64,000 bases of DNA from Amycolatopsis suaedae (GTDB taxonomy: Bacteria; Actinomycetota; Actinomycetes; Mycobacteriales; Pseudonocardiaceae). Below the pieces are notes generated by a model, which was given only the letters and a program-made list of their open reading frames with translations, ran no database searches and was not told the DNA's origin. Numbering within the stretch: position 1 is the stretch's first letter; every line of letters starts with the position of its first letter. The DNA is taken from contig NZ_SFCC01000014.1 of NCBI RefSeq assembly GCF_004214935.1, forward strand, positions 186,001-250,000, given 5' to 3'. Made by a program: the position numbers and the translations under genes. Shown one piece after another: positions 28,677 to 63,309 of this stretch.

Positions 28677-28706
28677 CTGCGGGCAGCCGGCCCGTCCAGC
28701 GCCCGG

Positions 28707-30503: not shown

Positions 30504-31057
30504 GTCACGTCCAGCAGTGTGACGGAATCTATCCGGCGGGTCCGGCCGGTGGCCGGCTCGGCGTCTCGCCAGGCAATCGGAGTTTCCCGCGAGAACACGA
30601 CCCGGCCGCACATCGTCGCGTCGAGGGTGGGATTCGCCACCGCGACGGCTGGGATCGACGCCAGCACTGGCTGGCACTCCTGGATCACGTCGGCCACGCA
30701 GACGTGCCACCGATTCGCGGGCACGACGTCGTCCAGCGCCGCGGTCTCCATCCACAGCGTGTAGGCGTTCCGGCTGAGCCCCCAGCGGTTGCCGGCGCTG
30801 GTGGCGTACATGGTGATCGAGGTCAGGTCCCGTGCGTCGTAGACGACCGTGTCCGGTCCGATCGGCGCGCGCGTGAAGACTCTCCAGTCCTGGTGCCAGA
30901 TCAGGCTGGCCGTCTGAACCTGCCGTGCCCACCAGGCGGAGGTGGATTGTGGAGCCCCGACCTGGAGCAGCAAGGTAACTGCGAAGACTACCGACAGAGC
31001 GACCAGCATCGAAACGAAGCCCTTGGTGCTCCGGGCTCGGGGAGGCGAATCGGTCAT
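30491..31057 (-). CDS. sdpA: SdpA-family antimicrobial peptide system protein
   Basis: A 188-residue protein with one N-terminal membrane anchor (FVSMLVALSVVFAVTLLL) and an extracytoplasmic domain containing WHQDWRVFTRAP, a feature of SdpA-family proteins, and paired cysteines (HVCVADVIQEC, TMCGRVV). SdpA and SdpB together are needed to produce active SDP toxin in Bacillus. Here the gene lies between a 54-codon peptide gene (10-base gap) and sdpB (overlap). It lacks a clear Shine-Dalgarno, so it may depend on translation of the peptide gene. Confidence 0.8.
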   Translation of the reverse strand: MTDSPPRARSTKGFVSMLVALSVVFAVTLLLQVGAPQSTSAWWARQVQTASLIWHQDWRVFTRAPIGPDTVVYDARDLTSITMYATSAGNRWGLSRNAYTLWMETAALDDVVPANRWHVCVADVIQECQPVLASIPAVAVANPTLDATMCGRVVFSRETPIAWRDAEPATGRTRRIDSVTLLDVTCGR

Positions 31058-31067
31058 TTAGGGCGAA

Positions 31068-31232
31068 CTAGCCCTCGCATGGAGGCCCGCAGATCGGCCC
31101 CTTCATGTTGACCAGCATCGGGTCAGCCGGGGGCCGGATCGGTGAGGGGCCCTCGGTGGTGCCTGTCAGGCCCAGCGCCAGGCCCAGGCCCGTGACTACC
31201 ACGGCCAGGCTGGTCACGATGACTTTCCGCAT
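31068..31232 (-). CDS. Small secreted peptide, candidate SDP-like toxin precursor
   Basis: A 54-residue product with AAGGAG eight bases before its ATG. It has a basic start (MRKVI), a hydrophobic signal-like core of about 18 residues, then a short Pro-rich stretch and a C-terminus with KGPICGPPCEG, whose two cysteines could form a disulfide. It is the first gene of an operon with sdpA and sdpB. Bacillus SdpC is much longer, but its toxin is a short, disulfide-bonded peptide. I infer that this is the maturation substrate; no sequence match supports it directly. Confidence 0.6.
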   Translation of the reverse strand: MRKVIVTSLAVVVTGLGLALGLTGTTEGPSPIRPPADPMLVNMKGPICGPPCEG

Positions 31233-31424
31233 GCGCACACTCCTTCTTCGAACGACGCGCGGCATGCCGTCCTGCGTGACAAGCCGCGAGTGGTGGTTCC
31301 TCGGCGTCCCGATGATCGCAACAGCTCCTCTCCGTTTGCTATCGAGTCTCTTCGAGGCACCCTCGAGGGATTCGTTCATTGGGTACTCTGTGTCGGGTCG
31401 GCGACGCGGAGGGGGTATTGCCGC
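31233..31424. promoter_or_regulatory. Divergent promoter region, sdp operon / SARP
   Basis: These 192 bases separate the two oppositely transcribed starts and must hold both promoters. SARPs usually bind direct heptamer repeats; I did not find a convincing set by eye. AAGGAG for the peptide gene and GGAGGG for the SARP flank the region. Confidence 0.5.
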
Positions 31425-34400
31425 ATGGATTTTCGGATCCTGGGGCCGCTCGAAGCAAGGACCGGGGAGGAAGTCGTACGCCTCGGCGGTCGCCGCCAGC
31501 AGAGGCTGCTGGCGATGCTGTTGATCTACGCGAACGAGGTAGTCACCCTTGACCGCCTGGTGGAGGGGCTGTGGGACGACGCGGCGCCCCCGACCGCCCA
31601 GGCGCAGTTACATAACGCGGTCTGGGCACTGCGCCGCGTGTTCTCCGCCGCGGGCGGGGACGGTGATTCGCTCGTCACCGAGCCCGCGGGCTATCGGCTG
31701 GTCGTACCCGGGAACAGTCTCGACGTGCACAGATTCTGGGCGGACGTCCAGGCCGCGGACAAGGCCGAGGCGGCTGGGCAGCCAGGTGACGCAATACAGG
31801 CGTTGTCGGCCGCCACTGCGCTGTGGCGGGGCCCCGCGATCGCCGGCCTGCGGATGGGCCGCGCACTCGATGCCGCGGCAGCCGGACTGGACGAGCAGTA
31901 TCTGGTGGTGGTGGAACGGCTGAGCGGGCTCCGGTTGAAGCTTGGGCAGACCGAGGAGCTCGTGGTCCAGCTGAGGGGTCTGGTGGGCGAGCACCCGTTC
32001 CGGGAGTCGCTGCGCGCGTTGCTCATGCTCACGCTCGCCGCTCTGGGCCGGCAGTCCGAGGCTCTGACTGTGTATGAGGAGGGCCGTCGGCTGCTCGCCG
32101 ACGAGCTGGGCGTGGATCCGGGTGCGCAGCTCCGTGAAGCACACGACCAGGTCCTGCGCGGCGCCGTCCCTGAACCCGCACCCGTGGCACCGTCCCGGCC
32201 CTCCCATCTACCCGCCGGCGCGAGCGACTTCGTCGGGCGCTCGGCCGACATCGATCGGGCGTTGACCGACGTACGCCGCGGTCCCACCGGGCCGCTGATC
32301 ATCACCGCGATCGACGGCATGGGGGGCGTTGGCAAGACTGCGCTCGCGGTCCGCCTGTCCGAGCTCTTGGCCCACGACTACCCTGATGGGCTGTATTTCA
32401 TCGACCTGCATGGTTTCTCGCTCGACGAGAGGCCGCGGACCCCGGAGGCTGCGCTGGACGTGCTGCTCCGCCAGGCGGGTATGCCGGTGGAGCTGATCCC
32501 GTCCGGATCTACCGAACGTGCCGAGCAGTGGCGGTCGATGACGGTGGGCAGGCGGATCATCGTCGTGCTCGACAATGCCGCCGACGCGGCACAGGTGAGG
32601 CCACTGCTGCCGGACACGACGGAGTGCCTGGTTCTAGTGACCAGCCGTCGCCGGATGACTGCGCTGGATGGCAGCCAGCCGATCTCACTGGATGTGCTGC
32701 CTCCCGCTGAAGCGGTGGCGCTGTTCCGACGGATCGCGGACCGGGGCATCGAGGACTCGGACGCGGTGGCCGATGTGACCGAACTCTGTGGCCGGTTGCC
32801 TCTCGCCATTCGGATCGCCGGTGCCCGTCTACGGCACAGACCCGCCTGGACCGTCGCGGACTTGGCTGAACGACTTCGGGAAACCCGACGTCGGGTCCAC
32901 ACCCTGGCTGTGGACGATCTCAGCGTGTACGTGACGCTGCGGCTGTCCTACGAATCGTTGCCGGAGCATCAACAGCGGACGTTCCGTCTGCTGGGTGTGC
33001 ATCCGGGCCAGGACTTCGATCGGTACGCCATCGCCGCGCTGGTGGGGCTTCCGGTGGACGAGGCTGAGGAGCAGCTGGAAAGCCTTTGCGACTGCAACCT
33101 CCTCATGCAGCCTGCCGCGGGGCGTTATCAACTGCACGATCTGGTCCGTGATTGTGCGAAACAACTTGTGGAGGTGATGGAGCCCGAGTCCAGCCGTCGT
33201 GACGCGGCCGCCCGGCTCTTCGACTACTACCTTTACCTGGCCCACCTGCACTGTAGTCCGATGGCGCGCAAGATCTCCCGCTTCGAGCCGGAAGTCCCAG
33301 CCGACCCAATAGCAGTCCCACCAGCGCGGAACGAGGTAGAAGCGATCGGCCTGCTGGAGGCCGAATACCAGAACCTGCTCGCAGTGGCCACCCTTGCCCA
33401 GGCAACCGGTTGGCCCACGCACGCATGGCAGCTGCCCTGCGTACTGCGACCGTTCCTGGAGCTGATGAACTTCCGGGTCGCCTGGTTGCACCTGTTCGAG
33501 GGCGCCCTCGGCATGGCGCGGCAGCTGAAGCATCGCCGCGGTGAGTCCGCCGCGCTGGCTAACATCGCCGTGATCCGCCGTGAGCTCGGCCAACTCGCCG
33601 ACGCGGTCGAGTTGCTGAAGCAGGCTCTGCTGATCAGCCAGGAGACCGGTGATCAGGCCGGCGAGGCGTATCAGACTTCGGACTTGGGCATCGCCTATGT
33701 GCGGATGGCCCGGTATTGGGAAGCGCAGGAGTGTTTCGAGATCGCCCGCGACCTGTCGGAGAAGCTGGGCAGCACGCGTGACGTTGGCGCACTCGTCAAC
33801 AATCTCGGTTTCGTGGCAGCGGACCTCGGCGAGTATTCCGAGGCGCAGGAGCAATTCGTGCGGGCGCTCGCCATCAATCGGAAAACCGGCTTTCGGCAGG
33901 GCGAGGTGCTGGCGTTGGCCAACATCGGCAGGCTGCACGGCCGCTTCCACCGGTATCCAGCGGCCCGGTCCAATCTGACGCAGGCGTTGGAGCTCAGCCG
34001 CGAGATCGGCTACCGGTTCGGGGAGGGATGGGCGCTGGCATGGCTAGCGACGCTGCATCGCCGAGAAGGAAACCTCCAGTCAGCGATTGAACTCGGCCGG
34101 CTGGCGCTCGAGGTGGGGACGGTGGCGGGGCTCACCGACGTCGAGTGCGAGGCGCTCAACTGCCTCGGTGAGACGTACCTGACGATGGGGGACGTCAATA
34201 TAGCGATCGACTTGCACCAACGCGCCGAAGAACTGGCCATGAGCCATCAGCTCACTCTGGCGATCGCACGTGCCGTCGAGGGTCGGGCCCACGTCGCACA
34301 GCGCCGTGGTGAACTGGCCGAGGCCCGCCGACTCTGGGAGCGGGCCTTGATGTTGTACCCCGAGTCTCTGGCCGACCGGGCCCACCCGCGTGCGCATCTG

Positions 34401-34442
34401 ACCACCGATGATGCCAGATGCGAACGGTGCGTGGTCAGCTGA
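31425..34442 (+). CDS. AfsR-type SARP regulator (wHTH-BTAD-NB-ARC-TPR)
   Basis: A 1005-residue pathway-type regulator. Residues 1-95 form the OmpR-like winged helix (MDFRILGPLEA, GGRRQQRLLAMLL). A bacterial transcriptional activation domain follows to about 250 (ALMLTLAALGRQSEAL). An NB-ARC ATPase has Walker A GMGGVGKTAL near 300 and Walker B-like IIVVLDNAADAAQVRPLLP. TPR repeats occupy the last 350 residues (ALANIGRLHGRF). Such proteins activate antibiotic operons by binding direct repeats. A TTA codon at 31608 suggests bldA-dependent timing. It is divergent from the sdp operon and within 3 kb of the biosynthetic cluster, so either could be its target. ATG 31425 follows GGAGGG. Confidence 0.9.
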   Translation: MDFRILGPLEARTGEEVVRLGGRRQQRLLAMLLIYANEVVTLDRLVEGLWDDAAPPTAQAQLHNAVWALRRVFSAAGGDGDSLVTEPAGYRLVVPGNSLDVHRFWADVQAADKAEAAGQPGDAIQALSAATALWRGPAIAGLRMGRALDAAAAGLDEQYLVVVERLSGLRLKLGQTEELVVQLRGLVGEHPFRESLRALLMLTLAALGRQSEALTVYEEGRRLLADELGVDPGAQLREAHDQVLRGAVPEPAPVAPSRPSHLPAGASDFVGRSADIDRALTDVRRGPTGPLIITAIDGMGGVGKTALAVRLSELLAHDYPDGLYFIDLHGFSLDERPRTPEAALDVLLRQAGMPVELIPSGSTERAEQWRSMTVGRRIIVVLDNAADAAQVRPLLPDTTECLVLVTSRRRMTALDGSQPISLDVLPPAEAVALFRRIADRGIEDSDAVADVTELCGRLPLAIRIAGARLRHRPAWTVADLAERLRETRRRVHTLAVDDLSVYVTLRLSYESLPEHQQRTFRLLGVHPGQDFDRYAIAALVGLPVDEAEEQLESLCDCNLLMQPAAGRYQLHDLVRDCAKQLVEVMEPESSRRDAAARLFDYYLYLAHLHCSPMARKISRFEPEVPADPIAVPPARNEVEAIGLLEAEYQNLLAVATLAQATGWPTHAWQLPCVLRPFLELMNFRVAWLHLFEGALGMARQLKHRRGESAALANIAVIRRELGQLADAVELLKQALLISQETGDQAGEAYQTSDLGIAYVRMARYWEAQECFEIARDLSEKLGSTRDVGALVNNLGFVAADLGEYSEAQEQFVRALAINRKTGFRQGEVLALANIGRLHGRFHRYPAARSNLTQALELSREIGYRFGEGWALAWLATLHRREGNLQSAIELGRLALEVGTVAGLTDVECEALNCLGETYLTMGDVNIAIDLHQRAEELAMSHQLTLAIARAVEGRAHVAQRRGELAEARRLWERALMLYPESLADRAHPRAHLTTDDARCERCVVS

Positions 34443-34484
34443 AACGCCAAGGGCTTGGTAGGACTCACTCGTAGGGTAGCCCTG

Positions 34485-34760
34485 ATGGCAGAACACGAGC
34501 GACCAAGCGACCCCACGGACTCGGCTAGCTGGGCGGCGACACCGCACCGAAACGCAATCCTATCGCGTTACACGGCCGCACAAGCCGGAAGACAGTCCGG
34601 CAAGGGGCCTGTCCTGGCATGGCTCCGCAAATCAAGATCCGGGAAAGTGGCCACCACGATCGCGTTGGCGGCGATCCTCATCGTCGTCGACACGGACCTG
34701 GTGGCCGGCCCGTTCAGCCTTCTCACCTACGCGGCCGGCGCGGGATTGGGTGGTGGCTGA
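34485..34760 (+). CDS. Small hypothetical protein with one hydrophobic segment
   Basis: A 91-residue product 42 bases after the SARP gene. The first 60 residues are polar; then comes a basic KSRSGK stretch and a hydrophobic segment (TIALAAILIVVDTDLV), ending Gly-rich. I do not recognise it. The Shine-Dalgarno is weak (TAGGG), so it may be co-translated with, or be a by-product of, the SARP transcript. Confidence 0.4.
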   Translation: MAEHERPSDPTDSASWAATPHRNAILSRYTAAQAGRQSGKGPVLAWLRKSRSGKVATTIALAAILIVVDTDLVAGPFSLLTYAAGAGLGGG

Positions 34761-34846
34761 GCAGCGCGACGGGTCGTAGTGGTCACCGAAGGCCCAGGCG
34801 AGGCCGAAGCCGTGGAAGTGAGCAATGACCGGCCGTCAGCGCCGGG

Positions 34847-35590
34847 TCAGGCGAAGGCGCGGAGATTGACCGTCCAGACGCTGTCGCCGAGGTCGAGTCC
34901 GTGCGGGGCGATCACGACGAGCGCACTGCCACCGCTCGTCGTCAGCAGGGGACGAATCGCGTTGGCGTCCGTCACGTTGTCCAGTACGAGCAGCGTCTGG
35001 CGGGTGTGTAGTGCGGAGCGGAGCCGCTCGACCCGAGTCGAGGGCCTGTCCTCGATGCCGAAGATGTTGCCAAGTCGGGGGAGAAGTGTGCCGTCTGCGG
35101 CGTCCAGGTAGTAGTGGCCGTCGGGGAAGGACGTGCGGAACCGTGCCGATGCTCGTGCCATGAGTGCGGCCCGATTCTTGGCCGGGCGCGCGACCACCTG
35201 CAGTAACCGCAACTGCCGCGTCGGCTCATCGACCAGCACGTGGCCCATCCACCGCACGAGTTCTGCGGTGTCATCGACTTCCAGCTCATCCGGCGTATGC
35301 GGTGTGGATGAAACACCCGCGACCCGGGCGATGCGCCGGAACCACTCCGACTCGATGTCCCCCATGCCTAGCGCGGCTGCCAACAACGCTACCGACTTGC
35401 GGTGTGGTTTGCGTGTCCGCCCACGCTCCAGGTCCGAGATCGTCCGGATGCTCACTCCTGAGCGCTCCGCGAGCTCCTCCTGTGTCAGGCACGCGTGCTC
35501 TCTCAGGTCGCGCAACAACGAGCCCACGTATTCAGTGTGTGGCCGTCGCACCTCGTCAGCGCGGTCACGATTACCGATGTAGACCGTCAT
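34847..35590 (-). CDS. XRE-family regulator with degenerate NB-ARC-like module (copy 2)
   Basis: A 247-residue paralogue of the protein at 28707-29450, the same length from first to last residue. The HTH (LTQEELAERSGVSIRTISDL) is unchanged between copies. Differences cluster in the middle, where the ATP-binding loop would be (RPAKNRAAL here). The Walker-B-like LLVLDNVTDANAIRPLL and the common ending WTVNLRAFA are kept. ATG 35590 has AAGGGGA just upstream. Because the DNA-binding helix is identical, both copies should recognise the same operator, quite possibly their own duplicated upstream regions. Confidence 0.8.
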   Translation of the reverse strand: MTVYIGNRDRADEVRRPHTEYVGSLLRDLREHACLTQEELAERSGVSIRTISDLERGRTRKPHRKSVALLAAALGMGDIESEWFRRIARVAGVSSTPHTPDELEVDDTAELVRWMGHVLVDEPTRQLRLLQVVARPAKNRAALMARASARFRTSFPDGHYYLDAADGTLLPRLGNIFGIEDRPSTRVERLRSALHTRQTLLVLDNVTDANAIRPLLTTSGGSALVVIAPHGLDLGDSVWTVNLRAFA

Positions 35591-35660
35591 GAATCCCCTT
35601 ACCGTTCCTCTCGTGAGGACCACCCTAAGAGGCCTCCACCAACTCGTCCGACCCTAGAAC
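34847..35660 (-). repeat. Direct repeat, right copy (XRE gene plus upstream)
   Basis: Counterpart of 28707-29520, with the same GCCTCCAC/CTAGAAC block upstream. The repeat pair brackets about 5.3 kb of unique sequence, and recombination between the copies would delete the sdp/SARP island. Confidence 0.75.
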
Positions 35661-35786
35661 GTCGGATCGATACGTCGGATACCGCGCCAATATGGCGGGT
35701 TGATAACAGAGTCGGTGGCGACAGAAGTCCGAGCAACACCTTTTCGCTGGAGCGCAAAGGGTATGAATACCTGTTCCGACACTAGG

Positions 35787-35888
35787 TCATTCGAGTGGCT
35801 GTGACGGTGGGGCTGCGGCGATGTCGGCGCACAGGGATAGGGCGACGCCGAAGGTGAAGGCGAGCCAGGCTATCCAGCGGGCGGCTCG
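35787..35888 (-). pseudogene. DUF2637-like membrane protein fragment
   Basis: About 30 residues (RWIAWLAFTFGVALSLCADI and a few more) match the character of a transmembrane segment in DUF2637 proteins, which are common on actinobacterial integrative and conjugative elements. No start and no flanking part of the domain is readable, and a stop follows shortly. The stretch 35661-36206 otherwise holds only AT-richer sequence and, around 36060-36188, the plus-strand 3' end of an unrecognised gene (VGVVFGDPAALPVVPADWV). Confidence 0.4.
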
Positions 35889-36206
35889 GTCATCCTGGGT
35901 CTTCCCTGGTACCAGTTCGGGCCACGGCGGTGCGGTCCGCACACCCGGATCAAGGGCCGCTACCCGGCCGGTGCCTCCACCGCGTGGGGACCGGGTGTGG
36001 AGGACGCGATGGCGGCCTGAGCCGGCGCCGCGGGTGCGGTACTGGGCCGCGACATCGGCGCGGCGATCCGGGTCGGCGTCGTGTTCGGCGACCCGGCCGC
36101 GCTGCCCGTCGTGCCCGCCGACTGGGTCCCGTTGATGGAGCTCGGCGGCCCCCGACATCAGCGTTTCACCCCGCGATCGGTCGCCTGAGGCGTCTGGAGG
36201 TACCCC

Positions 36207-36420
36207 ATGAGACTGGTGAGCACGCGCCGCGACAGAACCGTGCTGACGATCCGGTTGAACAACCCGCCGTTCAACTTCCTCACCATGGACATGCTGATCG
36301 AACCGGAGAAACTCCTCGGCGAGATCCACCGGGACCTCGGCCTGCGGGCCGTGGTGCTGACCAGCCACGTGCCCGGCGTGTTCGTCAGCCACTACGACGT
36401 CGGCGAGTTTTCCCTGTTCA
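36207..36420 (+). pseudogene. Enoyl-CoA hydratase/isomerase, 5' fragment
   Basis: The first 70 residues read as a crotonase-fold protein (VLTIRLNNPPFNFLTMDML, AVVLTSHVPGVFVSHYDVGE), with a GGAGG ribosome site at 36196. After about 36418 the sequence no longer resembles the family, although the frame stays open to 36935 by chance. The catalytic second half is missing, so this is a remnant cut by a deletion or insertion. Confidence 0.65.
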
Positions 36421-36536
36421 AGGGATGCGCGAGCGCAACTGGGCAAGAGGCGGTGTGGCCGGGGGTGACGCTGTTTGTTCGACGGAGCGCGGTGCTGTTG
36501 ATGCCGTGGTCGCGGGCCGGCCTGGGGTGGTCTCGG

Positions 36537-36950
36537 TCAGTTAGTGTGCTCCCCGCGCACGCGGGGATGATCCGCATCAACATCGACGTGGCCGCCCGGC
36601 CGAACCGTCTGCCATTGATGCCGTGGTGCCGTCGTCGGTCGTTGCCGGCGTGTCCAGGTGGTGATGAAGCGGACCCAGCGGCCGGCTCGGCGGTGACGCG
36701 GTGCGGCTGCTCGATGGCGGAACACGGTCAGTGCGCGCAGCGTATCGAGATGGGCGATGCACGCACGGCACGGTGGCCGTGGTGGTGCGGTCATCGCTGC
36801 TGGCTGGAAAGCCGTGCCGCACAGCCCGACGAACCGGCAGCGGCCGGCGAGGGCGTTCGACAAGCGTTCGTCGGTGACCGCGTGATCGGCCGGCTCGCTC
36901 GCACTGGTCATCCAGACGGTCCGGAAAGCTCTTGACCCAGGAGTTGCCAT
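36537..36950 (-). CDS. Small hypothetical protein with CxxC-type zinc-ribbon-like motif
   Basis: A 137-residue reading frame starting at ATG 36950 with GAGGTG eight bases upstream. The middle has LCGTAF and, about 15 residues later, PPCRAC, a possible metal-binding pair, followed by many His/Arg. I recall similar small actinobacterial hypotheticals but cannot assign a function. The last 12 or so residues (DHPRVRGEH) are simply the translation of the CRISPR repeat, so the original 3' end was replaced. Confidence 0.45.
   Translation of the reverse strand: MATPGSRAFRTVWMTSASEPADHAVTDERLSNALAGRCRFVGLCGTAFQPAAMTAPPRPPCRACIAHLDTLRALTVFRHRAAAPRHRRAGRWVRFITTWTRRQRPTTAPRHQWQTVRPGGHVDVDADHPRVRGEHTN
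36546..36574 (+). CRISPR. Solitary type I-E CRISPR repeat
   Basis: Twenty-nine bases with the actinobacterial type I-E pattern: GTGCTCCCCGCGC, the complementary GCGGGG, and an ATGATCCG end. No second copy follows after a spacer length, and no cas gene is in the window. It is either the last repeat of a deleted array or an isolated capture. A TTGATGCCGTGGT sequence lies on both sides (about 36498 and 36616). Confidence 0.7.
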
Positions 36951-36997
36951 TGCGAATACACCTCGATGTGGACGACTGAGTGCCGTCGCCGCTCAGC

Positions 36998-37600
36998 TCA
37001 GAGGCGCCCGGTGACGTACTCGACCGTGCGCTTCAGAGCCTCCTCGCGGTCGCCGGACGGCAGGAGCTGGTGCGGGAGTTCGAGATCGGTGAGCACTCGC
37101 GCGACGTGGTGATCCGCGAGCTGGCGGAACCGCTGGTCCTGGTCACGGGGTTTGGCTGTTCCCAGCGGGATCGTGTCGTCGAGTTCGCTGCGGAGAAGCA
37201 GGTCGTAGTGCCGGCTGTGGTTTCGGACGAGCGTTTCCAGCTGGCTCGTCAAGTGCGGATCCGCTTGCTCGTCCCGGTAGGCGAGGGCCGCGCGGTAGTA
37301 GCCGAGGGCGTCGGGTACGGCGCGATCGACAAGCACGACCTCGGTGTGCGGCCAGGTCCCGAGCTCGTTGCTGATCCCTCGGGTGACGATCCAGAAGGTT
37401 GACGTCCAGGTGTGGGCATGCAGGATCGGCAGCCCGTGGTGCTGCGCCTGCTCACCGAGGTCGGCGACGGTGGCCACCTGTACGTCCTGACGACGTAGCG
37501 CGCTCGCCAGCTGGGCGAGGAAGGTGGTCTTGCCGGTCGAGTGTGCGCCGACGATCCCGACGGTCACGGGACGATCCACCTCGGGGTGCGCGGTGCTCAC
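36998..37600 (-). CDS. P-loop ATPase/kinase-like protein (AAA, NadR-like)
   Basis: A 200-residue protein with Walker A GAHSTGKTTF near residue 18, a hydrophobic strand ending in Asp (VVLVDRAVPDALGYY), and Arg/Asp-rich later motifs. It resembles small AAA or nucleoside-kinase-like proteins. The GTG at 37600 overlaps the stop of the exonuclease gene (GTGA), which in turn overlaps the radical SAM gene, so the three form one operon. Unlike its two partners it appears full length. Function is unknown; linkage to an exonuclease suggests nucleic-acid or nucleotide metabolism. Confidence 0.7.
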   Translation of the reverse strand: MSTAHPEVDRPVTVGIVGAHSTGKTTFLAQLASALRRQDVQVATVADLGEQAQHHGLPILHAHTWTSTFWIVTRGISNELGTWPHTEVVLVDRAVPDALGYYRAALAYRDEQADPHLTSQLETLVRNHSRHYDLLLRSELDDTIPLGTAKPRDQDQRFRQLADHHVARVLTDLELPHQLLPSGDREEALKRTVEYVTGRL

Positions 37601-38046
37601 CACAGGCCGCCTTCGATCGCCTGGGTACCGATCCCCGGTAGCGCCGCCATGTCGGCGACCTGGGCGAGCCGCAGCGAGTCGAGTACGAGCGCCGGCTCCC
37701 AGGCCGGAAGGTGGCTGGTGAGCACCTTGTATTCGACGGAAGCGTTGTGGGCCACCAGGATCCGGTCGGCCAGGAGCGACCTCACCTGGTCGGCCACTGC
37801 CGACCAGGGCGGCACACGGGCGACGTCTTCGTTGGTGATCCCGTGCACGCGGCGGGTCACGAACGTCGTGATCGGCTCGCTGGGGCGAACCAGCCAACCG
37901 AGGATGTCCTCGCCGCGTGCCTCTCCAGGGCTGGAGATGGGGAGCAGACCGAGCTCGACGATCTCCGGAGGGTGCTGGCCGTTGCCTTCCACATCGACGA
38001 CCGCGAGCCGCCGGCCGTCGAAGGCCGGGGGAATGGTGCTGTTCAC
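37597..38046 (-). pseudogene. DEDD 3'-5' exonuclease with internal deletion
   Basis: The N-terminal part is a normal DnaQ/RNase T-type exonuclease: VVDVEGNG with the Asp/Glu metal ligands, RRVHGITNEDV, and LVAHNASVEYKVL. After LVLDSLRLAQ the frame jumps straight to ADMAALPG and a GGLW end. About 60-80 residues of the usual middle, with the last His and Asp of the active site, are missing without loss of frame. At 149 residues it is shorter than the family's 210-230. It is probably inactive, though still in a coupled operon (GTGA overlaps on both sides). Confidence 0.65.
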
Positions 38047-38660
38047 AGTGACTCCGATCCTGTGGTCGGCCAGCCGAGGTCCGCGCGGCCGTGGCGGTAG
38101 CGACGATGTGGCTTGGCGACATCGTGCACCTGGTAGCCGAAATGGTGCTGCAGGCGGTACCGGCGTTGCTCGTCCAACCCGGACACGACGATGGCTCGGG
38201 AGTTGGTCTCGACGAGCTCTCCGCCGAGGTCGGCGACCATTGTCCGCACGACCGCGGCCTCGGGCTGGTTCCAATGCCTGGAACAACGACGTTGTTGTAC
38301 GGCAGGACAGATGTCGCACAGCTCCCGGATCCCGTAGTGACCTGAGTAGTCCGGCCCACGGTGGACATACGACACCGCACACGACGTCTTGCGGAAAAGC
38401 GGGCCACCATGTGGCTGGTCCGCCGCGGCCGCGAGCACTCGCTGCTCGAGATGCTGCGGGAACACCTTTCTGCGGGCACCGACCCCGTACGGCTCCGGGA
38501 GCCCGTTCGCCCGGTAGTAGTCGCGGATCTGGTCCTTGTAGAACAGTCCGGTGTAGACACAGGCATGTGCGTGCCGCCGCAGAGCGAGCGCTTGAGCCCG
38601 GGCACCAGCGGCCGCCAGTACAACACCACCCGGAAACGCTCGGCGTTCTCGAAGTGACGC
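38043..38660 (-). pseudogene. Radical SAM protein remnant, truncated and frameshifted
   Basis: Two pieces of one protein lie in different frames. ENAERFRVVLYWRPLVPG is encoded at about 38600-38656. The C-terminal part, from HAHACVYTGLFYKDQIRDYY to the end at 38043, lies in another frame and includes the cysteine-rich RELCDICPAVQQRRC. Roughly 15-25 residues between the pieces are gone. The N-terminal half, with any CxxxCxxC cluster, is absent because a plus-strand gene fragment begins at about 38653. I assign radical SAM from memory of the C-terminal pattern, so treat the family name with care. Confidence 0.5.
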
Positions 38661-39057
38661 GGACTTCGAGGCCGAACGCCGGGAGAAGGCACGCAAGGCA
38701 GCCGAACTGGCGAAGGTGCTCAAACACCTCATTCCCGACTTCGAAGAGTTCGAGTACGTCGGCGGCGGAAGCTGTACCACGGCGTGCGTGGGCCTCCGGA
38801 TCAGCGGGGGCGCGTTCACCAGCTGCAAACTCGACGATGGGGCCGACACGACCTCCGATCGAGTCGGCATAAACGCCCAGCCAATCCTGTCGGTTTCCGA
38901 AATCGCCCGCTATCAGCGAAAAGGTACCCAGGCATCCGTTGTCACGCCGGGGATCTACTATCGTGGCTCGATAGCGAGTGATGGACGGGCCATTGCCTTC
39001 GTGGCCCAGGTGACAGTCGACGGCAGTAGCTTCTCGATAAGCCTGGGGGAGTCGTGA
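38653..39057 (+). pseudogene. Hypothetical protein, 5'-truncated
   Basis: The frame reads about 20 residues of charged helix (DADFEAERREKARKAAELAK), then HLIPDFEEFEYVGGGSCTTACVGL and a beta-rich region ending in SISLGES. The helix begins at the junction with the radical SAM fragment and has no start codon or ribosome site there. GTG 38716 could serve as a makeshift start. I do not recognise the family. Its stop overlaps the start of the next small gene (GTGA). Confidence 0.45.
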
Positions 39058-39221
39058 AATACAAGACGGCCGGCACGAATCCAGCTCGGAAGCCGAAATG
39101 GGGACCCGAGATGGGAATGGTCATGACCTACCGGCATTACCCCGGACGGCCAGTTGGTGGCCCAGCGGACACCGGTCCGGGCCTGCTGCGGGAACTTCGG
39201 GAAATGCGGGAACGTCGCTGA
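39054..39221 (+). CDS. Small basic protein, 55 residues
   Basis: GTG 39054 overlaps the previous stop and has GGGGGAG three bases upstream, a good case for translational coupling. The product is strongly basic (VKYKTAGTNPARKPKWGPEM at the start, LLRELREMRERR at the end) and contains no hydrophobic segment. Function is unknown; it may be the partner of the beta-rich protein encoded just before. Confidence 0.45.
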   Translation: MKYKTAGTNPARKPKWGPEMGMVMTYRHYPGRPVGGPADTGPGLLRELREMRERR

Positions 39222-39980
39222 CACTTCCCGCGCGTACGCCCAATGCGGTGTGCTGAAGACTCGATGGTGACGGACGACGAGGTGCGGTCCATGCGAGTGT
39301 TGCTGGTGGAGGACGACGATGGTGTGGTGGCGGCGCTGGTGGATGCGTTGACCGCGCGTGGCCACCACACCCATCGGGTAGCACGCGGTGCCGACGCGCT
39401 CACCGCCCGCGCGGGCGCCGACCTGGTTCTGCTCGATCTGGGCCTGCCGGACCTCGACGGCCTGGAGGTGCTACGCATGTTGCGCCGGGTGGCGCGGACG
39501 CCGGTACTGGTGCTGACCGCCTGCGGTGACGAGCGCTCGGTCGTGCGGGCTCTGCGGTTGGGTGCCGACGATTACGTCGTCGAGCCCGTCCGGCTGGCTC
39601 AACTGATGGCCCGGATGGATGCGATCATCCGGCGGGTGACTCCCATGCAGAGTCAGGACGGGAGGTGGTCCGGGTGGCCGATCTGACAATCGACCTCGCG
39701 GCACGGCGAGTCCAGGCGCACGATACCGACATCGCGCTGACCCCGAAGGAGTTCGACCTGCTGGCGATCCTGGCCCGCCGGGTGGGCGTCGCGGTGAGCC
39801 GGCAGCAGTTGATGGACGAGATCTGGGGGACGCCTACCTTGCGGTGGAGCAATGATCAGAACCTGTGGATGGTCCTCGGCGGGGAGAGGTGAGGGGCCGT
39901 ACCTTCCCGAGGAAGATCTGAAAGCCGAAAGAGTTCTGATCAGGGCTGGCGTTGGCGCGCCGGTTCGGGAGGGTACGCCC

Positions 39981-41267
39981 ATGCTCAAGGTAGTTCATGA
40001 CGAGTCCGCAACCAACGACAGCCCAGGTGGCTCGTCGGCGTCGTTGATCGACGAGATCGTCCGTGAAGGTGCCCGGCGGATGCTCGCTGAGGCGCTGCGG
40101 GCCGAGGTGGACGCCTACATCGCCGCGTTCGCTGGCGAGCGCGACGAGCATGGCCACCGGCTGGTGGTGCGTAACGGCTCGCATCAGCCGCGGGAGGTGC
40201 TCACCAGCGCCGGTGCGGTCCAGGTAACCGTGCCGCGGGTTAACGACAAGCGGATCGACCCTGATACGGCCGAGCGGATGAGGTTCTCCTCGGCGATCCT
40301 GCCGCCGTGGGCGCGCAAGACGCCGAAGGTGACCGAGGTGCTGCCGCTGTTATATCTGCACGGCCTGTCCTCGGGCGACTTCGTGCCCGCTCTGGGCCAG
40401 TTCCTCGGCTCGACCAAGGGCCTGTCGCCGGCGGTGATCACCAGGCTCACCGAGACGTGGAAGGCCGAGCAGCGCGCCTTCGCCGAGCGTGACTTGTCCG
40501 AGGTGGACTACGTGTACCTGTGGGCCGACGGGATCCACGTCAACATTCGCCTGGAGGAGCACAAGCTGTGCCTGCTGGTGCTGATCGGAGTGCGTGCCGA
40601 CGGCCGCAAGGAACTCGTCGCGCTGACCGATGGCTACCGCGAATCCGCCGAGTCGTGGGCCGACCTGCTGCGTGACTGTCGCCGGCACGGCATGCGCGCC
40701 CCGGTCCTAGCCGTCGGGGACGGCGCGCTCGGGTTCTGGGGCGGCCTGCGCGAGGTGTTCCCCGAAACGCGGGAACAGCGCTGCTGGTTCCACAAGTCGG
40801 CGAACGTCCTTGCCGCGCTGCCGAAGTCCGCGCGTCCCAGCGCGAAGAAGGCACTCGCCGAGATCTGGGGCGCGGAAGACAAGCGGCACGCCCAGGACGC
40901 GGTGCAGGCGTTCGCGGCCGCCTACGGCGCCAAGTTCCCCAAGGCCGTCGCCAAAATCACCGACGACGTCGACGAGCTGCTCGCGTTCTACGACTACCCC
41001 GCGGAGCACTGGGTCCATCTCCGCACCACCAACCCCATCGAATCTACTTTCGCCACCGTTCGGCATCGGACAAAGGTGACGAAAGGACCGGGGTCGCGGG
41101 CGGCTGGGCTGGCCATGGCGTTCAAGCTCATCGAGGCCGCCCAGTCACGCTGGCGCGCGGTGAACGCACCCCACCTCGTCGCCCTCGTCCGCGCGGGCGC
41201 ACGCTTTGAGAACGGCCAACTTGTCGAGCGCCCCGACGAATCGGCAGACCATGACCAAGCCGCGTGA
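39981..41267 (+). CDS. IS256-family transposase
   Basis: A 428-residue Mutator/IS256-type DDE transposase. It has the N-terminal GARRMLAEALRAEVDAYIAA block, the first catalytic Asp in YVYLWADGIHVN, the second in VLAVGDGALGFW followed by the CWFHK zinc-like motif, and the catalytic Glu in TTNPIESTFATVRHRT. ATG 39981 has GGGAGGG upstream and matches the usual start. The gene is intact and full length. Confidence 0.93.
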   Translation: MLKVVHDESATNDSPGGSSASLIDEIVREGARRMLAEALRAEVDAYIAAFAGERDEHGHRLVVRNGSHQPREVLTSAGAVQVTVPRVNDKRIDPDTAERMRFSSAILPPWARKTPKVTEVLPLLYLHGLSSGDFVPALGQFLGSTKGLSPAVITRLTETWKAEQRAFAERDLSEVDYVYLWADGIHVNIRLEEHKLCLLVLIGVRADGRKELVALTDGYRESAESWADLLRDCRRHGMRAPVLAVGDGALGFWGGLREVFPETREQRCWFHKSANVLAALPKSARPSAKKALAEIWGAEDKRHAQDAVQAFAAAYGAKFPKAVAKITDDVDELLAFYDYPAEHWVHLRTTNPIESTFATVRHRTKVTKGPGSRAAGLAMAFKLIEAAQSRWRAVNAPHLVALVRAGARFENGQLVERPDESADHDQAA

Positions 41268-41335
41268 CACTCCGATCGACAGGTGTTGACATTCCTCGAC
41301 GCGGCCGTTTGACACGCTGCGCGACACTGGAAGCA

Positions 41336-41575
41336 GTGGACCACGGCACACCGCCCCCGTGGAGCGAGGACGAGATCAACGACCTCGTGTTGCTGATCCA
41401 CGATCTTGACCGGGATTCACGGGTAGGCCACAACTACGAGCCTGATACCCGTCGAGACGATCCGTATGAGGACGAGATCGCAGATCGCGGCGCGTGCCCA
41501 GTCCTCAACCTCGGCGATCGGCCGGGCTGGCTGACCGAGGACGAGGACCTCACAGACGGATTCCTGCTGGAGTAA
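41336..41575 (+). CDS. Acidic passenger ORF inside the IS
   Basis: A 79-residue, strongly acidic product (PPWSEDEINDLVLLIHDLDR, WLTEDEDLTDGFLLE) lying between the transposase and the right inverted repeat, on the same strand. GTG 41336 with a nearby GGAAG is the likeliest start; the frame extends upstream to 41264. IS256 elements normally carry only the transposase. I do not recognise the protein; it could be an antitoxin-like, regulatory or chance ORF. Confidence 0.45.
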   Translation: MDHGTPPPWSEDEINDLVLLIHDLDRDSRVGHNYEPDTRRDDPYEDEIADRGACPVLNLGDRPGWLTEDEDLTDGFLLE

Positions 41576-41789
41576 GCCGACACGCCGATCCACAGTTCTT
41601 GACTATTCCTCCTTGCGGTGTCCCGTTCGCTGGATGTCCATCTGACCCAGCTTCGGGCCAAGCTCGGTCGCCCTGGTCTGCTGACCACGATTCGCGGCTT
41701 CGGATATCGCCTGGGCGGCTGACTCGTGACAGCGGAGGGAAGAAGTCGAGAAGACCGGCGCACCGACGCGTTCCTTCCTCGTGGCGGTG

Positions 41790-43274
41790 CTACCTCAACC
41801 CGTATTTCAGTGAGGAGTTCTGAGACGGACTCCGGCTTGGCGAGATCCGGCATACGGCGTGGCGGGCGAAGCGGGCGAGTACCCAGGGCGAGAACAGGCT
41901 GGTCGGCGGCGATGTCATGGACATGACTTGGAAGTACCGGTTCGCCAGGGCGCTGTCGTGCACGGCGACGCTGAGCACGAGATCGATGTAGCGGCGTATG
42001 GTGCCCAGCCCGCGAGGCGGTTCTGCGCCGTGCAGGCGTACGGCAGGCCAACGCAGGTCTTCGATGGTGGTCACCATCCACGCGGTGGATACGACACGCG
42101 CCGCGAGACGGTGGTAGCGCACTTCAAGCGATGTCTCTCGGCCGGACTCTTGGCGCAGGCAGTCGCGTAGTGCGAGGGCTTGGATCGCGGCGACGGTCAT
42201 GCCTTGCGCGTACACGGGGTTGAACGAGCACACGGCGTCGCCGATGGCGATCAGACCGGAGGGGCGGCGGGGCATGTGTTCGAAGTGTCGCCATCGGCTG
42301 GTGGGGGTGCGCCAGCCTCGGATCGGACTCACGGGGCGAGCACTGCGGATCGCTTGGTGGACGCTGGGGTCGGGCAGCGCCTGGGCCCAGCTCAGGAAGC
42401 CGTCCTCGTCGGTGGGAACTCGCTGCCCGTTCCCCCCGCCGAGGGTGACGTGCCAGTGATCGTTCTCGATCTCGATGATTGACCCGACGCGGGGGTTGTC
42501 CGGTGCCCGGCTCTGGACCACAAGGCTCTTGAAGTCCTCCGGGACGCCGCCTGGGCGCTGATAGATACGTGAGGCGTAGGAGAGCTCAGATGTGAGGATT
42601 TCCTCGTCGACCGGGCCGTAGCCGAGGTCGGTCAGCCAGGTCTGGAGGCGGGATTGACGTCCTGAGGCGTCGACGATGAGGTCACCGAATAGAGTCCGGT
42701 CGTCGTGCGGTCCGGCGGCGCCGCCTCGGCGTCGTACCCGTACCCCGCGGACCTGGCTGGTGTCGTCCTCGCGAGCCAGCAGCCCTACGACGTTGGCGGA
42801 GGCGACGAACTCGACCCGCGGGTGGCGGGAGAGGATGTCACGTAGGTGCCATTCGAGCAGGGCCCGGCTGAAGAACAACGCGCCGACGTCGATCTGCTGG
42901 GTCAGGGGCAGCAGGCCTTTCGGTGTCACGAACCGGGCTTGGGCGATGGTGGTGGCGTGGGCGGCGCCGTCGCGGGCGAGCCGTTCGCGCAGCTCGGGGA
43001 ACAGCTCGTGGAGGATCTTCGCGCCGCGCGGCAGCAGGGCGTGGGCATGGTGGGATTGCGGTGCACCGCTGCGGTGGCCGGGTGTGGCGGGGAAACGGTC
43101 GCGGTCGAGAACGAGGACCTCGGTGAACTGTTCGGACAGCACCCGGGCGGCAAGCAGCCCGCTGATGCCCGCACCGACCACGATCGCGCGTGTTCGGCTA
43201 TGCGGCGCCCCAGAGGTGCCGGTCATGGGGGTCTCCGAGGGATTCGAGGCCGTCGTCGGAGTGGCCCTGGTCAT
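41790..43274 (-). CDS. FAD-dependent monooxygenase/oxidoreductase
   Basis: A 494-residue flavoprotein. GxGxxG FAD motif VVGAGISGLLAARVL near residue 31, followed by LVLDRDRFP; the second FAD motif is GLIAIGDAVCSFNPVYAQGM near 360. It resembles the squalene-monooxygenase/halogenase-like hydroxylases seen in secondary metabolism. The ATG shares a base with the stop of the carotenoid-oxygenase remnant (TGATG), so the two were one operon, perhaps for apocarotenoid or terpenoid oxidation. The last 20 residues look non-conserved and run up to the response-regulator relic. An internal ATG at 43226 is an alternative start. Confidence 0.82.
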   Translation of the reverse strand: MTRATPTTASNPSETPMTGTSGAPHSRTRAIVVGAGISGLLAARVLSEQFTEVLVLDRDRFPATPGHRSGAPQSHHAHALLPRGAKILHELFPELRERLARDGAAHATTIAQARFVTPKGLLPLTQQIDVGALFFSRALLEWHLRDILSRHPRVEFVASANVVGLLAREDDTSQVRGVRVRRRGGAAGPHDDRTLFGDLIVDASGRQSRLQTWLTDLGYGPVDEEILTSELSYASRIYQRPGGVPEDFKSLVVQSRAPDNPRVGSIIEIENDHWHVTLGGGNGQRVPTDEDGFLSWAQALPDPSVHQAIRSARPVSPIRGWRTPTSRWRHFEHMPRRPSGLIAIGDAVCSFNPVYAQGMTVAAIQALALRDCLRQESGRETSLEVRYHRLAARVVSTAWMVTTIEDLRWPAVRLHGAEPPRGLGTIRRYIDLVLSVAVHDSALANRYFQVMSMTSPPTSLFSPWVLARFARHAVCRISPSRSPSQNSSLKYGLR

Positions 43275-43687
43275 CAGGTGGGCAGCCAGTTGCCGTGGAA
43301 GCCGTGCGGTACCCGGGCGGGCAGCAGGACTTCGGCGACGGTGTCCAGGGACGCGGCGTCGAGCAGCGTCAGCCGGGACCGGTCACGGTCGGCGTCGTAG
43401 ACGAACCCCATGAGCACGCCATCGTGCTCGGCGGCGTCGGAGCTGGAGGGGACGAACACGAACTCGCCGGCCTGGGCGTGAGTGCCGAGGCGGCGGCGGG
43501 TGATGGTGCCGGCGTCGAGGTCGTGCCGCAGCACCGCGTCACCGACCGGGTCGCCGATCGGGTTCGGGCCGTTGCGCACGTAGCGCCCCTCGAGGTGGGT
43601 CGGGATCGTCCCGGCCACCTCGAGCTCGACCAGAGTCTTCTCCTCGCTGACCGGGGCGTAGTTGCCGGTCAGATAGGGGTTACTCAT
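43274..43687 (-). pseudogene. Carotenoid cleavage oxygenase with large in-frame internal deletion
   Basis: The first 45 residues match the start of RPE65/carotenoid oxygenases (GNYAPVSEE, LEGRYVRNGPNPIG) and the last 90 match the end (GEFVFVPSSSDAAEHDGVL, PHGFHGNWLPT with the final iron-ligand His). About 350 residues between them, including three of the four iron-binding histidines, are absent, yet the frame is kept. At 137 residues it cannot be a working enzyme. ATG 43687 has GGGAGGA, and a palindrome sits just upstream. It is coupled to the FAD monooxygenase. Confidence 0.8.
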
Positions 43688-43708
43688 GTCGTCCTCCCGC
43701 CACCCGCG

Positions 43709-43729
43709 TTCCGTAACAGCGTTACAGAA
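43709..43729. promoter_or_regulatory. 21-bp palindrome, TetR-type operator candidate
   Basis: TTCCGTAAC and GTTACAGAA flank a central AGC and are complementary except at one position. The site lies 22-42 bases upstream of the start at 43687, a normal place for a repressor operator. No TetR gene is adjacent. Confidence 0.6.
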
Positions 43730-43806
43730 CAGGTGGATTCAAGCACGGTTGTAGCGACTGGGCAAGGGTGTGGCTACCGCGGACGTGCGGGATCGGTTAG
43801 TGGAAG

Positions 43807-43846
43807 CCGCGCCGCTGCCGGACGTCGAGAGCCAGCAGCGGCGCGG
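43807..43846. terminator. GC-rich hairpin
   Basis: CCGCGCCGCTG (43807-43817) pairs perfectly with 43836-43846 across 18 bases. It has no T-tract. The gap 43730-44224 contains no gene that I can support, and from about 43990 to 44220 it is noticeably AT-rich for this genome. Confidence 0.35.
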
Positions 43847-44224
43847 GTGCGCCAGCCCTGGAGATTGACGCGTCGACGATGGTGGTCTACCACTGCTTTG
43901 GAGGCACACCCGCGCTGCTGTGCGGCGTTAGTGGTCGTCGTCCGGAAGCTGCCGTAGAAGCCCTGCAGGCGTCGATAGGAATCCCAACGTGCGCGGCTAT
44001 TCACGAATCGCCCTCGCTTTTTTGGCTCGTATTTATTGATCGCTGATCGCGAAGATTAAAAATAAGATGAAACGCGCGTGAGAAGGTCTTTAGAAATGGG
44101 CTAATTCTGTTAGGATCGGGCGTTTCGCTCGCTGTTGATGTGCACTATGCTCGTTTTGTTGGAGCGGCGCCGAGAAATCACCGGTGGTCTCGTGTATTTG
44201 TCAACTCTACTTTTAGGAGGAACC

Positions 44225-44390
44225 ATGCGTAGGCTAGCCAAGCTCTGCGATCGGCGCGGCGGCGCTAGGTGTAGTGATGCTGTTCGGAACCAGTATCGCC
44301 AACGCCGAGGGCGACACTGTCGCGGGCCCTCTGGTCGGCGAGTCTCAGGCGGCCCAGCTGCCCCCGCTGCCCGAGCTGCCGCAGCCGTAA
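44225..44390 (+). pseudogene. Small secreted Pro-rich peptide gene, frameshifted
   Basis: AGGAGG precedes ATG 44225, which starts MRRLAKL. A one-base insertion near 44246 moves the rest into another frame, where a clear signal peptide (AIGAAALGVVMLFGTSIANA) and a short mature part ending QLPPLPELPQP run to TAA 44388. Removing one T restores a 54-residue secreted peptide. It may be a sequencing error or real decay. The AT-rich region upstream looks like a strong promoter zone. Confidence 0.6.
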
Positions 44391-44504
44391 CGATGGCCGT
44401 GGTGGCGCGGCGATTCTTCTCGCCGCGCCACCGCGGAACACTTCTGTCGGCGCCTTCGATGAGATTCGTGCTGGCGTCATCCAGAACCGACACGTTGACG
44501 TACT

Positions 44505-45030
44505 CAAGTACGTCGCCTTACGCCGCTGGCGATAGCTGGCGGACTTGTACTTGTTTCCGCATTCCGCCATGCCACACCACCGGCGTGCGCCGGATCGGGA
44601 AAGTTCGACGAACAGTCGTGTGCATTCCGGGTTCGAGCATTCCTTGACTCGGTCGAGTTGGGATGAGCCCAGCAGTTCGACAGCGTCACGGGCGACGTAG
44701 CCGAGCACCTCGTCGACACCGCCTGCCCGGGGCAGCCTCAGGTTGCGGTTCACTTGCACCCGGGGAAGCGGAAGACGCGCGGCGTCGTTGATCCGGGCGA
44801 GGTCATCTTCGGCGCTGCGAAGACCTTGTACAGGCTTTCCCGCAGGTCGCGCACGCGGGCCAGGTCGTGCGCACTCAGCGTGCCGACTCGGTCCAGGATC
44901 GCAGCCTCGAAGATCCACTGGGCGAGGGCAACCGGTGATTCCAGCAAGTCCGTGCGGCGGTCCGGCGCCACTGCATTGTGCCGATGAAGCCGAGGCACGG
45001 GCGGCCGCTGACGAACACGAACTCAGCCAC
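44505..45030 (-). pseudogene. CGNR zinc-finger (ABATE-type) regulator, frameshifted
   Basis: Three frames carry successive parts of one protein: AEFVFVSGRPCLGFIGTM from GTG 45030; RRTDLLESPVALAQWIFEAA and ARVRDLRESLYKV; then DDLARINDAARLPLP, ending with the zinc finger KECSNPECTRLFVE, RRWCGMAECGN and SYRQRRKA. The CGNR motif is recognisable (CGNK here). At least two indels (near 44960 and 44815) break it. It converges on the peptide gene at 44225. Confidence 0.75.
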
Positions 45031-45312
45031 GTCAGCATGTTGACAGGTGACAGTTTGGATGTCACGGGCGCATCGCCGCGCGGAGAAGGTACCGCAGCTG
45101 ACGCTGGGTCCCGCCGACCGTCATGTCATCCCGAAGCAGTGGACTTATGAACACACTCCCGTCGTACGCCGGCGGGGCGACGAAACTACTTCTGTTTGAT
45201 TCGCGAAGGGGTCGTCGGGGTTTCCACCTTTAGGTAATACCGCCGTCGTCGGATCCATGCTCAAATCGAGGGGTCGTTGAATTCCCTGCATAACGGAAGA
45301 TCTGGAGCTACC

Positions 45313-45648
45313 GTGAAAAAGCAATACGCGTCGCTGTCACTGATTGCGGCAGCCGTCGGAGTGCTCGCCGTGGCGTCGCCGTTGTCGGCTACTGCGTCGA
45401 CGGACCGGACGGGAGCGGCGTCACAGGTCGTGGTGTCCGATGTGCCGTGCGGCTATGACCCGACGCCCAATGCGACGTGGAACAACTGCAGCGGTGGCCG
45501 TGAAGAGATCCGGATCACCTGGATCGACCACCGCGGCCGAGGCGGACACACGGACTACTGCGCCAATCCGGGAGTGACTTACCTCAGCAACGCTATCGGC
45601 GGGATCGGCTACCCGACCGGTGCTTTCAAGATACGCGATCGGTGCTGA
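45313..45648 (+). CDS. Small secreted Cys-containing protein (DUF6355-like)
   Basis: A 111-residue product with a signal peptide (VKKQYASLSLIAAAVGVLAV ending at an Ala-rich cleavage site) and a mature domain of about 80 residues with four cysteines: VPCGYDP, NNCSGG, YCANPG and the final DRC. The pattern recalls DUF6355 proteins annotated near natural-product genes, a weak family guess. GTG 45313 follows GGAG by five bases. The preceding interval 45031-45312 shows only promoter-like sequence. It is one of the few intact genes in this zone. Confidence 0.7.
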   Translation: MKKQYASLSLIAAAVGVLAVASPLSATASTDRTGAASQVVVSDVPCGYDPTPNATWNNCSGGREEIRITWIDHRGRGGHTDYCANPGVTYLSNAIGGIGYPTGAFKIRDRC

Positions 45649-45705
45649 GCGCGGTGTGCTGCATACCGCTTTCCGCTTGACGTGCGGTGGTGACGATCCC
45701 GAGTG

Positions 45706-46614
45706 ATGGTTGAGCTGATCGGTGTTCCGTTCGACGGCTACGGCCGCGACGGCCATCAAGCAGGCGCCGCCAGGACGCTACGCGAGTCTGGTCTCTCGAC
45801 GGCTCTCGGGCCGCATCAGGTCGTCGACGGTGAGGACCTGATGCGGCCGTCCGACACCTCGGCACGGGGGTCGAGACGTCGTTGATCAACGAGCCGGCGT
45901 TGCTGGTGATGACCGAACAGCTCGGAGCCCGTGTCGGGGCCGCGGTGAACGCGGGGCGGTTTCCGCTGGTGTATGGCGCTGACTGTTCGACTCTGCTCGG
46001 GATGGTCCCCCGCGTTGCGTGAACGCGGGCGGGTGGGCCTGTTGTTCGTCGACGGCCACGAGGACACGATGCCTCTGGGTGTCTCCGAGGACGGTGAGGC
46101 CGCCAACTCCACGCTCGGTCTGCTGCTCGGACTGACCGGCCGCCTCCTGCGTGGCCGGTTGGCCGGGAGACTTCCGTGCTTGGGACTGGACGATCTGGCT
46201 GTGCTCGGGCCGCGCGATGCCGAGTGGCGTCGGCGGTTCAACGTCGGCTCGCTGCGTGACAGCGGGGTATGGCTGCGCGACTGGACCGAGGTCGCCGCAG
46301 AGCTCGAAGCATGTGGCGCGACGGCAGCCGCGTACCTCCGGAAGGGGCCGGGGCGCTGGTGGCTTCATGTCGACCTCGACGTCCTCGACCCCGGCGTGTT
46401 TCCCGCGCAGGGCTTGCCGGGGATCGAGGATGAGCCGGATGGCCTGACGTGGAACCAGCTCACCGCCGTCCTCACCAGCGCCGTGCCCCTTGGCGGATGC
46501 CTGGGCATGAGCGTGGCCGTCTACGATCCTGATCAAGATCCGGACCGTGCGGGCGCACATCGTGTCGTGCGGCTTATCGGTGCTGTGCTGGGAGCGTGGG
46601 GTGACCGGAGGTGA
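45706..46614 (+). pseudogene. Arginase/agmatinase-family enzyme, frameshifted
   Basis: Three frames hold consecutive arginase-fold segments: VELIGVPFDGYGRDGHQAGA from about 45706; ETSLINEPALLVMTEQLGAR and LVYGADCSTLLG; then LLFVDGHEDTM with the metal ligands, WWLHVDLDVLDPGV and the usual C-terminus. Breaks fall near 45868 and at a C-run near 46011. All metal-binding motifs remain, so the breaks may be recent or artefactual. If restored, the enzyme would hydrolyse a guanidino compound with a dimanganese centre. Confidence 0.8.
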
Positions 46615-46629
46615 TCGGGGGGCCTGGGC

Positions 46630-47096
46630 GTGACCGCTGCGCGTCGCCTGGCCGAGCTGGGGGCTGTGAGATCGCTCCGGGGCTGACCGGCGCGGAGTTC
46701 GCCCGGATCGAGGGCGAGTACGGTTTCGAGTTCGCGGACGATCATCGGGCGTTCCTGGCGGCGGGCCTGCCGTTGAACGGCCCGTTCGAGCCGGAACCCG
46801 GGGCCAGCTATGCCTGGCAGAAGCCCTGGCCGCAGTGGCGTGACGGAGACCGCCGAGCTTCGGGAGCAGCTCGGCTGGCCGGTCGCCGCCGTGGTGCGGG
46901 CGGTCGAGCACGACGGGCACTGGAACACGGCCTGGGGTGTGCGGCCGAGCGGCGTCGAGGCAGCTGTGGCGTTGGCTCGACGGTTGCTGGCGAGCGCACC
47001 CAGGATGATCCCGGTCTACGCGCGCCGGTTCCTGCCGGGAGGGCGTGGCACGTTCGGGCACCCGGTTGTGTCTCGTTCTGGCGTGACTACCTGTGA
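46630..47096 (+). pseudogene. SUKH (SMI1/KNR4) family protein, frameshifted
   Basis: The pieces PGLTGAEFARIEGEYGFEFA with DDHRAFLAAGLP, then ELREQLGWPVAAVVRAVEHD and PVYARRFLPGGRGTFGHPV, then SFWRDYL, lie in alternating frames and together make a normal SUKH domain of about 155 residues. SUKH proteins are often immunity proteins or toxin partners. Breaks fall near 46670, 46845 and 47075. No toxin gene is adjacent. Confidence 0.7.
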
Positions 47097-55823: not shown

Positions 55824-55840
55824 CCCCCGCGAGCAAAACA

Positions 55841-55872: not shown

Positions 55873-55885
55873 GCCCTGTGAGGGC

Positions 55886-63300: not shown

Positions 63301-63309
63301 CTGCTGGCC

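Follow-up and report, generated by a model that had tools for sequence, protein, structure and literature searches.

The analysed stretch of 64,000 nucleotides (hereafter the window; bases 186001–250000 of a 250124-base contig in the 7.5 Mb, 32-contig genome of Amycolatopsis suaedae) very likely holds a graveyard of decaying genes, in which short-repeat deletions, truncations, frameshifts and a transposon insertion remove genes piecemeal and catalytic cores are not targeted. Some genes of the region were probably acquired horizontally. For one of the decaying genes, encoding a carotenoid oxygenase, the loss of the core could be traced base by base (Table 1), and the case cautions that, in a GC-rich genome, what looks like a small protein encoded by a short in-frame ORF can be a dead gene.

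Table 1. Features of the window discussed in the text (window coordinates).
Feature	Position	Strand	Remarks
Decayed zone	28601..46700	.	43% non-coding by codon model; no 3′ stop in 7 of 17 coding segments tested
AAA_28-type ATPase	36998..37606	-	Apparently intact, downstream of exonuclease
DEDDh exonuclease remnant	37597..38046	-	149 aa; ~57 codons missing in frame at ~37663/37662
Radical SAM gene (presumed), 3′ half only	38046..38653	-	25-bp frameshifting loss at ~38591
Mutator-family element	39847..41610	+	Inserted in response-regulator gene; flanked by 10-bp direct repeat (39837–39846 and 41611–41620)
FAD-dependent oxidoreductase gene	41790..43274	-	36 bp shorter in frame than in A. arida, 3′ end replaced
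Carotenoid oxygenase remnant	43274..43687	-	137 aa; central 347 codons missing in frame (profile matches, gap against A. arida)
Oxygenase deletion junction	43551..43558	-	Sole remaining copy of 8-bp word ATCGGCGA
TetR-type regulator (presumed), 5′ remnant	43754..43928 (limits approximate)	+	79% DNA match and A. arida ORF
Glycosyltransferase remnant	63244..64000	+	5′ end missing, frameshifted, ~45 bp in-frame loss at ~63753

Loss of the oxygenase core between two copies of an 8-bp word

The RPE65 profile matches the oxygenase frame in two stretches with the middle absent, the best match being to the last 89 positions. Despite this absent middle, the Pfam score of 111 bits passes the cut-off of 27, and the best-scoring NCBIfam model is that of an 8′-apo-carotenoid 13,14-cleaving dioxygenase. 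The gene was compared with its 484-codon counterpart in A. arida (L111), which was equated by matching identity and residue range with genome G068, of another genus of the same family. Both ends of the protein are kept in the window, and with both sides of the gap aligned to A. arida exactly 1041 bp are missing, in agreement with the initial annotation, in which the gene was read as having lost its middle in frame. The block running from the oxygenase 3′ part through the FAD-dependent oxidoreductase gene is 92% identical to A. arida DNA over 1752 columns.

In A. arida, the word ATCGGCGA is located at both ends of the missing stretch, in copies 1041 bp apart, while it occurs once in the window; relative to A. 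arida, the oxygenase gene thus lost one copy of the 8-bp repeat together with the intervening 1033 bp. Microhomology of at least 8 bp was found for 0.085% of random breakpoint pairs in the A. arida oxygenase gene (deletions of 300–1299 bp), and the same gene offers 37 repeats of at least 9 bp, so that ATCGGCGA was not the longest available. Full-length carotenoid oxygenases of the RPE65 family carry four iron-binding histidines; the window frame lacks the A. arida histidines of the missing stretch and retains the C-terminal HGFHG. Together, the two remaining pieces show a dN/dS of 0.59 versus A. arida (16 differences in all), with 10 nonsynonymous changes against 11.7 expected under neutrality. 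Since the pieces disagree (2.04 for the 5′ piece and 0.29, on 9 differences, for the 3′ piece), the 3′ piece alone could be constrained.

Deletions between short direct repeats can arise through replication slippage, single-strand annealing or microhomology end joining, and the oxygenase loss resembles them in that a close relative has a repeat copy on either side of the missing DNA, of which a single one is left here. This kind of event is already known, being ordinary bacterial DNA loss. The oxygenase core probably went by strand slippage, by single-strand annealing or by end joining at the 8-bp repeat, routes that cannot be told apart from the junction sequence. The genome contains three Ku genes, making end joining possible. 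A report on NHEJ-type mutagenic repair in Streptomyces (PMC5869714) describes deletions that followed induced breaks, with estimated sizes of 191 to 23,591 bp; the likeness lies in an actinomycete host and in the presence of Ku genes here too, whereas no break was induced in the present case and the origin of the junction is deduced.

The exonuclease, radical SAM and ATPase genes

A comparable shortening was seen in the exonuclease gene, of which homologues encode ~205 aa. Both ends are kept, the LRLA block being joined directly to the AALPG...EGGLW end, where homologues have ~57 more residues in between; the claim of the initial annotation that this gene, too, lost its middle in frame was thus upheld. 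Among the absent residues is the third motif HxxxxD. Of 29 other loci, 28 retain it, with L065 ending shortly after the LRLA block, and it is likewise present in each of the 25 exonucleases located next to 29 related ATPases. The window protein retains the first motif DxE (as DVEG), and its RNase_T match (30.4 bits versus a cut-off of 24) spans profile positions 2–97 of 164 only.

The adjacent gene is one that we take to encode a radical SAM protein, going by the CxxxCxxC motif of its homologues; the remnant itself yielded no Pfam or NCBIfam match. In all ten full-length homologues this motif is present as GCPLDC(G/S)YC in the N-terminal half, while the window frame begins at approximately residue 188 of 400, nothing in the window matches the motif-bearing 5′ half, and the DNA beyond the remnant reads as a plus-strand coding fragment. 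An out-of-frame loss of the middle had been proposed for this gene. A small out-of-frame internal loss is indeed present (25 bp versus seven of eight homologues and 28 bp versus the eighth, with at least 1 bp of microhomology as judged from distant homologues), but CxxxCxxC went with the whole 5′ half and not by internal deletion.

The radical SAM, exonuclease and ATPase genes are also neighbours elsewhere in the family: within the DNA examined, an exonuclease was near 25 of 29 ATPase loci, and a radical SAM gene was also near 24 of these 29. No close DNA relative of the trio was found among 60 relatives, 150 family, 80 genus and 390 family genomes (overlapping sets), the best protein identity there being ~60–68%, and for this reason the exonuclease junction was not placed to the base. 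When defence-system models were applied, a generic DEDDh model and two models of a candidate system (PDC-S48) were matched by the exonuclease remnant, the ATPase gave only a weak match to mad8, and the radical SAM remnant gave none.

Short forms in other genomes

To place the window oxygenase among its homologues, 110 loci were considered, i.e., 30 from family genomes (the window's own included) and 80 named ones, the two sets overlapping at least for A. arida. The middle is present in 106 of them. The four others are the window's own locus, L042 (a C-terminal part only, from a family genome consisting of one contig), L043 (where the match falls at the end of the available DNA) and L174. The latter (5992–6384), on a contig of a Chloroflexi metagenome-assembled genome, is a 130-aa frame that retains the first ~60 residues, the last 19 residues and, apparently, as seen by eye, a middle piece, and the pieces it keeps differ from those kept in the window. 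As read from its sequence, L174 may represent either a second, independent in-frame core-less oxygenase or a misassembly; with such a frame in existence, short oxygenase forms are not unique. The initial annotation had also considered that the short forms might belong to common natural short families, and these were not encountered: the two ends are kept while most of the middle is absent in 2 of the 110 oxygenase loci (the window's own and L174), and none of the 29 other exonuclease loci keeps both ends without the core.

In-phase bias of direct repeats within genes

The phase of exact direct repeats 100–1500 bp apart was determined in 185,745 bases of this genome, made up of 121 long stop-to-stop frames. 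The share of repeats in phase rose from 40% at 3 bp to 68.5% at 8 bp and to 87% for lengths of at least 12 bp; summed over all repeats of at least 8 bp it was 70%, compared with 33% by chance. When codons were shuffled within genes, 65% (8 bp) and 80% (at least 12 bp) were still in phase, whereas shuffling of bases reduced these values to 32% and 33%, respectively, indicating that the bias follows mainly from codon usage. In the A. arida oxygenase gene, 75 of 94 repeats of at least 8 bp were in phase, and in 20 E. coli genes this was the case for 60% of such repeats.

Repeat-mediated deletions should therefore mostly stay in frame without selection, and the null expectation for in-frame deletions at repeats of at least 8 bp is ~60–80% (across three gene sets) instead of 33%, a figure that helps to judge whether in-frame deletions signal selection. 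The in-frame outcome seen here would thus be favoured by codon structure, long direct repeats within genes being mostly in phase. An in-frame excess as proof of selection was rejected after these controls. A count of five in-frame cases among six internal losses (p of 0.018 at one third each) was likewise left unused, as the 36-bp difference in the FAD-dependent oxidoreductase gene and a 12-bp difference in the glycosyltransferase gene are unpolarised and frameshifts were not counted. A limited literature search found no paper on the in-phase bias of within-gene repeats, although one may exist in print.

More speculatively, it is conceivable, if somewhat doubtful, that repeat-mediated deletion is intrinsically frame-preserving in codon-biased GC-rich genomes, and that decaying genes there spend some time as short ORFs that lack their core but remain open, are annotated as proteins and may occasionally be reused. 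The independent core-less frame of L174, from another phylum, fits such a decay stage.

Lesions in further genes

The FAD-dependent oxidoreductase gene next to the oxygenase has a dN/dS of 0.32 versus A. arida (46.5 nonsynonymous changes against 70 expected if neutral). Its 36-bp difference from A. arida has 3 bp of microhomology and is not polarised as loss or gain, and its last codons have been replaced relative to A. arida. On the other side of the oxygenase, the gene that is presumably of TetR type keeps its 5′ part and misses its 3′ part versus A. arida.

The glycosyltransferase gene, for which the best NCBIfam model is the rifamycin-inactivating Rgt with a score far under the cut-off, starts inside the gene, beside a trypsin-like frame on the opposite strand, and changes frame twice between ~63320 and ~63476. 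Versus homologues L232, L233 and L236 it has lost ~45 bp (15 codons) in frame, including a GFGSM stretch that is present in all six genus homologues compared; judged from distant homologues, the microhomology at this loss amounts to ~2 bp. The 12-bp difference in the same gene sits in a tandem repeat that is also variable among relatives and is not polarised. The in-frame loss proposed for this gene was therefore recovered, yet its 5′ end is missing as well, its reading frame is shifted, and it is located at the contig end.

Genes with frameshifts include those for the glycosyltransferase, the response regulator and a protease. The response-regulator gene, split by the mutator-family element, also changes frame near 39660, and inspection by eye showed a lesion of a single base in one of its G runs. 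The element itself is presumably IS256-like; the repeat finder reported no terminal inverted repeats for it, and its imperfect ends were compared by eye.

Extent of the decayed zone

The density of damage was assessed with a codon model for which 18 other genome stretches (17.7–20 kb each), and not the window, provided the training data, a choice that may slightly favour these stretches, which also served as controls. The stretch from 28001 to 48000 was 40.5% non-coding and contained 13 short segments; 9 of 19 tested coding segments, or 4.5 per 10 kb, lacked a 3′ stop. The controls averaged 9.5% non-coding (maximum 33.8%) and 0.61 segments without 3′ stop per 10 kb (maximum 1.5), and 28001–48000 fell outside their range in all three measures. 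Values were also raised in 44001–64000 (7 of 21 segments without 3′ stop, 20.5% non-coding), while 1–20000 and 14001–34000 were normal by this model. Elsewhere in the genome, L254 (G000:C1:100001-120000) is 34% non-coding by the codon model and is possibly a second decayed zone.

Weighing of the explanations

The initial annotation ascribed the losses to a specific deletion process, perhaps one driven by microhomology. A process peculiar to the region and preferring gene cores (e.g., error-prone end joining of repeated breaks) would fit with several deletions inside a few kb, with one junction having 8 bp of microhomology and with the presence of three Ku genes, but the lesions are mixed (genes truncated at the 5′ or 3′ end, frameshifts, an inserted transposon), two of the four genes named lost a large 5′ part by truncation, and the other junctions that can be judged have little microhomology. 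The microhomology part of the proposal is well supported at the oxygenase junction, while at the FAD-dependent oxidoreductase, glycosyltransferase and radical SAM genes it is weak (~1–3 bp); strong microhomology and base resolution thus coincide at one junction only. With the lesions being of several kinds and the whole zone decayed, a dedicated core-deleting process is not needed, and we consider it highly improbable. Piecemeal decay would involve no special aim at catalytic cores: as the core is the middle of a gene, an internal deletion tends to remove it. Bacterial genes that have escaped selection are shortened and lost. Set beside the deletional bias in bacterial pseudogenes (Kuo and Ochman, 2010; PMC2916853), the window would offer a local case in a GC-rich actinomycete.

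It is also very unlikely that the short proteins are functional mini-forms retained by selection. Two of the deletions do preserve the frame and both ends, the L174 frame has both ends without most of the middle as well, and the 3′ piece of the window oxygenase shows the low dN/dS mentioned above on its nine differences. Set against this, the middle is present in nearly all oxygenase loci (106 of 110), the pieces kept by L174 are different and include only ~19 C-terminal residues, adjoining genes are broken, and the preserved frame can be explained by in-phase repeats. Sequencing or assembly errors as the source of the deletions appear extremely unlikely, even though the genome is a draft in 32 contigs, the contig ends 124 bp past the window, and the one-base response-regulator lesion seen by eye lies in a G run. 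For an ordinary assembly to collapse 1041 bp, a repeat of 8 bp is far too short; no near-identical second oxygenase copy was found in the genome (the only other match being a paralogue of 40% identity), and the assembly is clean in most of its 18 control stretches.

Other features of the region

Near a truncated frame resembling an enoyl-CoA hydratase (under the Pfam cut-off), a single CRISPR repeat, presumably type I-E-like, was identified at 36546–36573; a 24-base pattern of this repeat, allowing up to two mismatches, had one match genome-wide. An arginase-family gene (45703–46614) seems to be split over two frames, the later part matching positions 105–276 of 280 of the Pfam Arginase profile and the start being read from the ORF list only. 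Finally, the segments 28687–29520 and 34829–35660 are 87% identical, the second containing the frame of a helix-turn-helix regulator.
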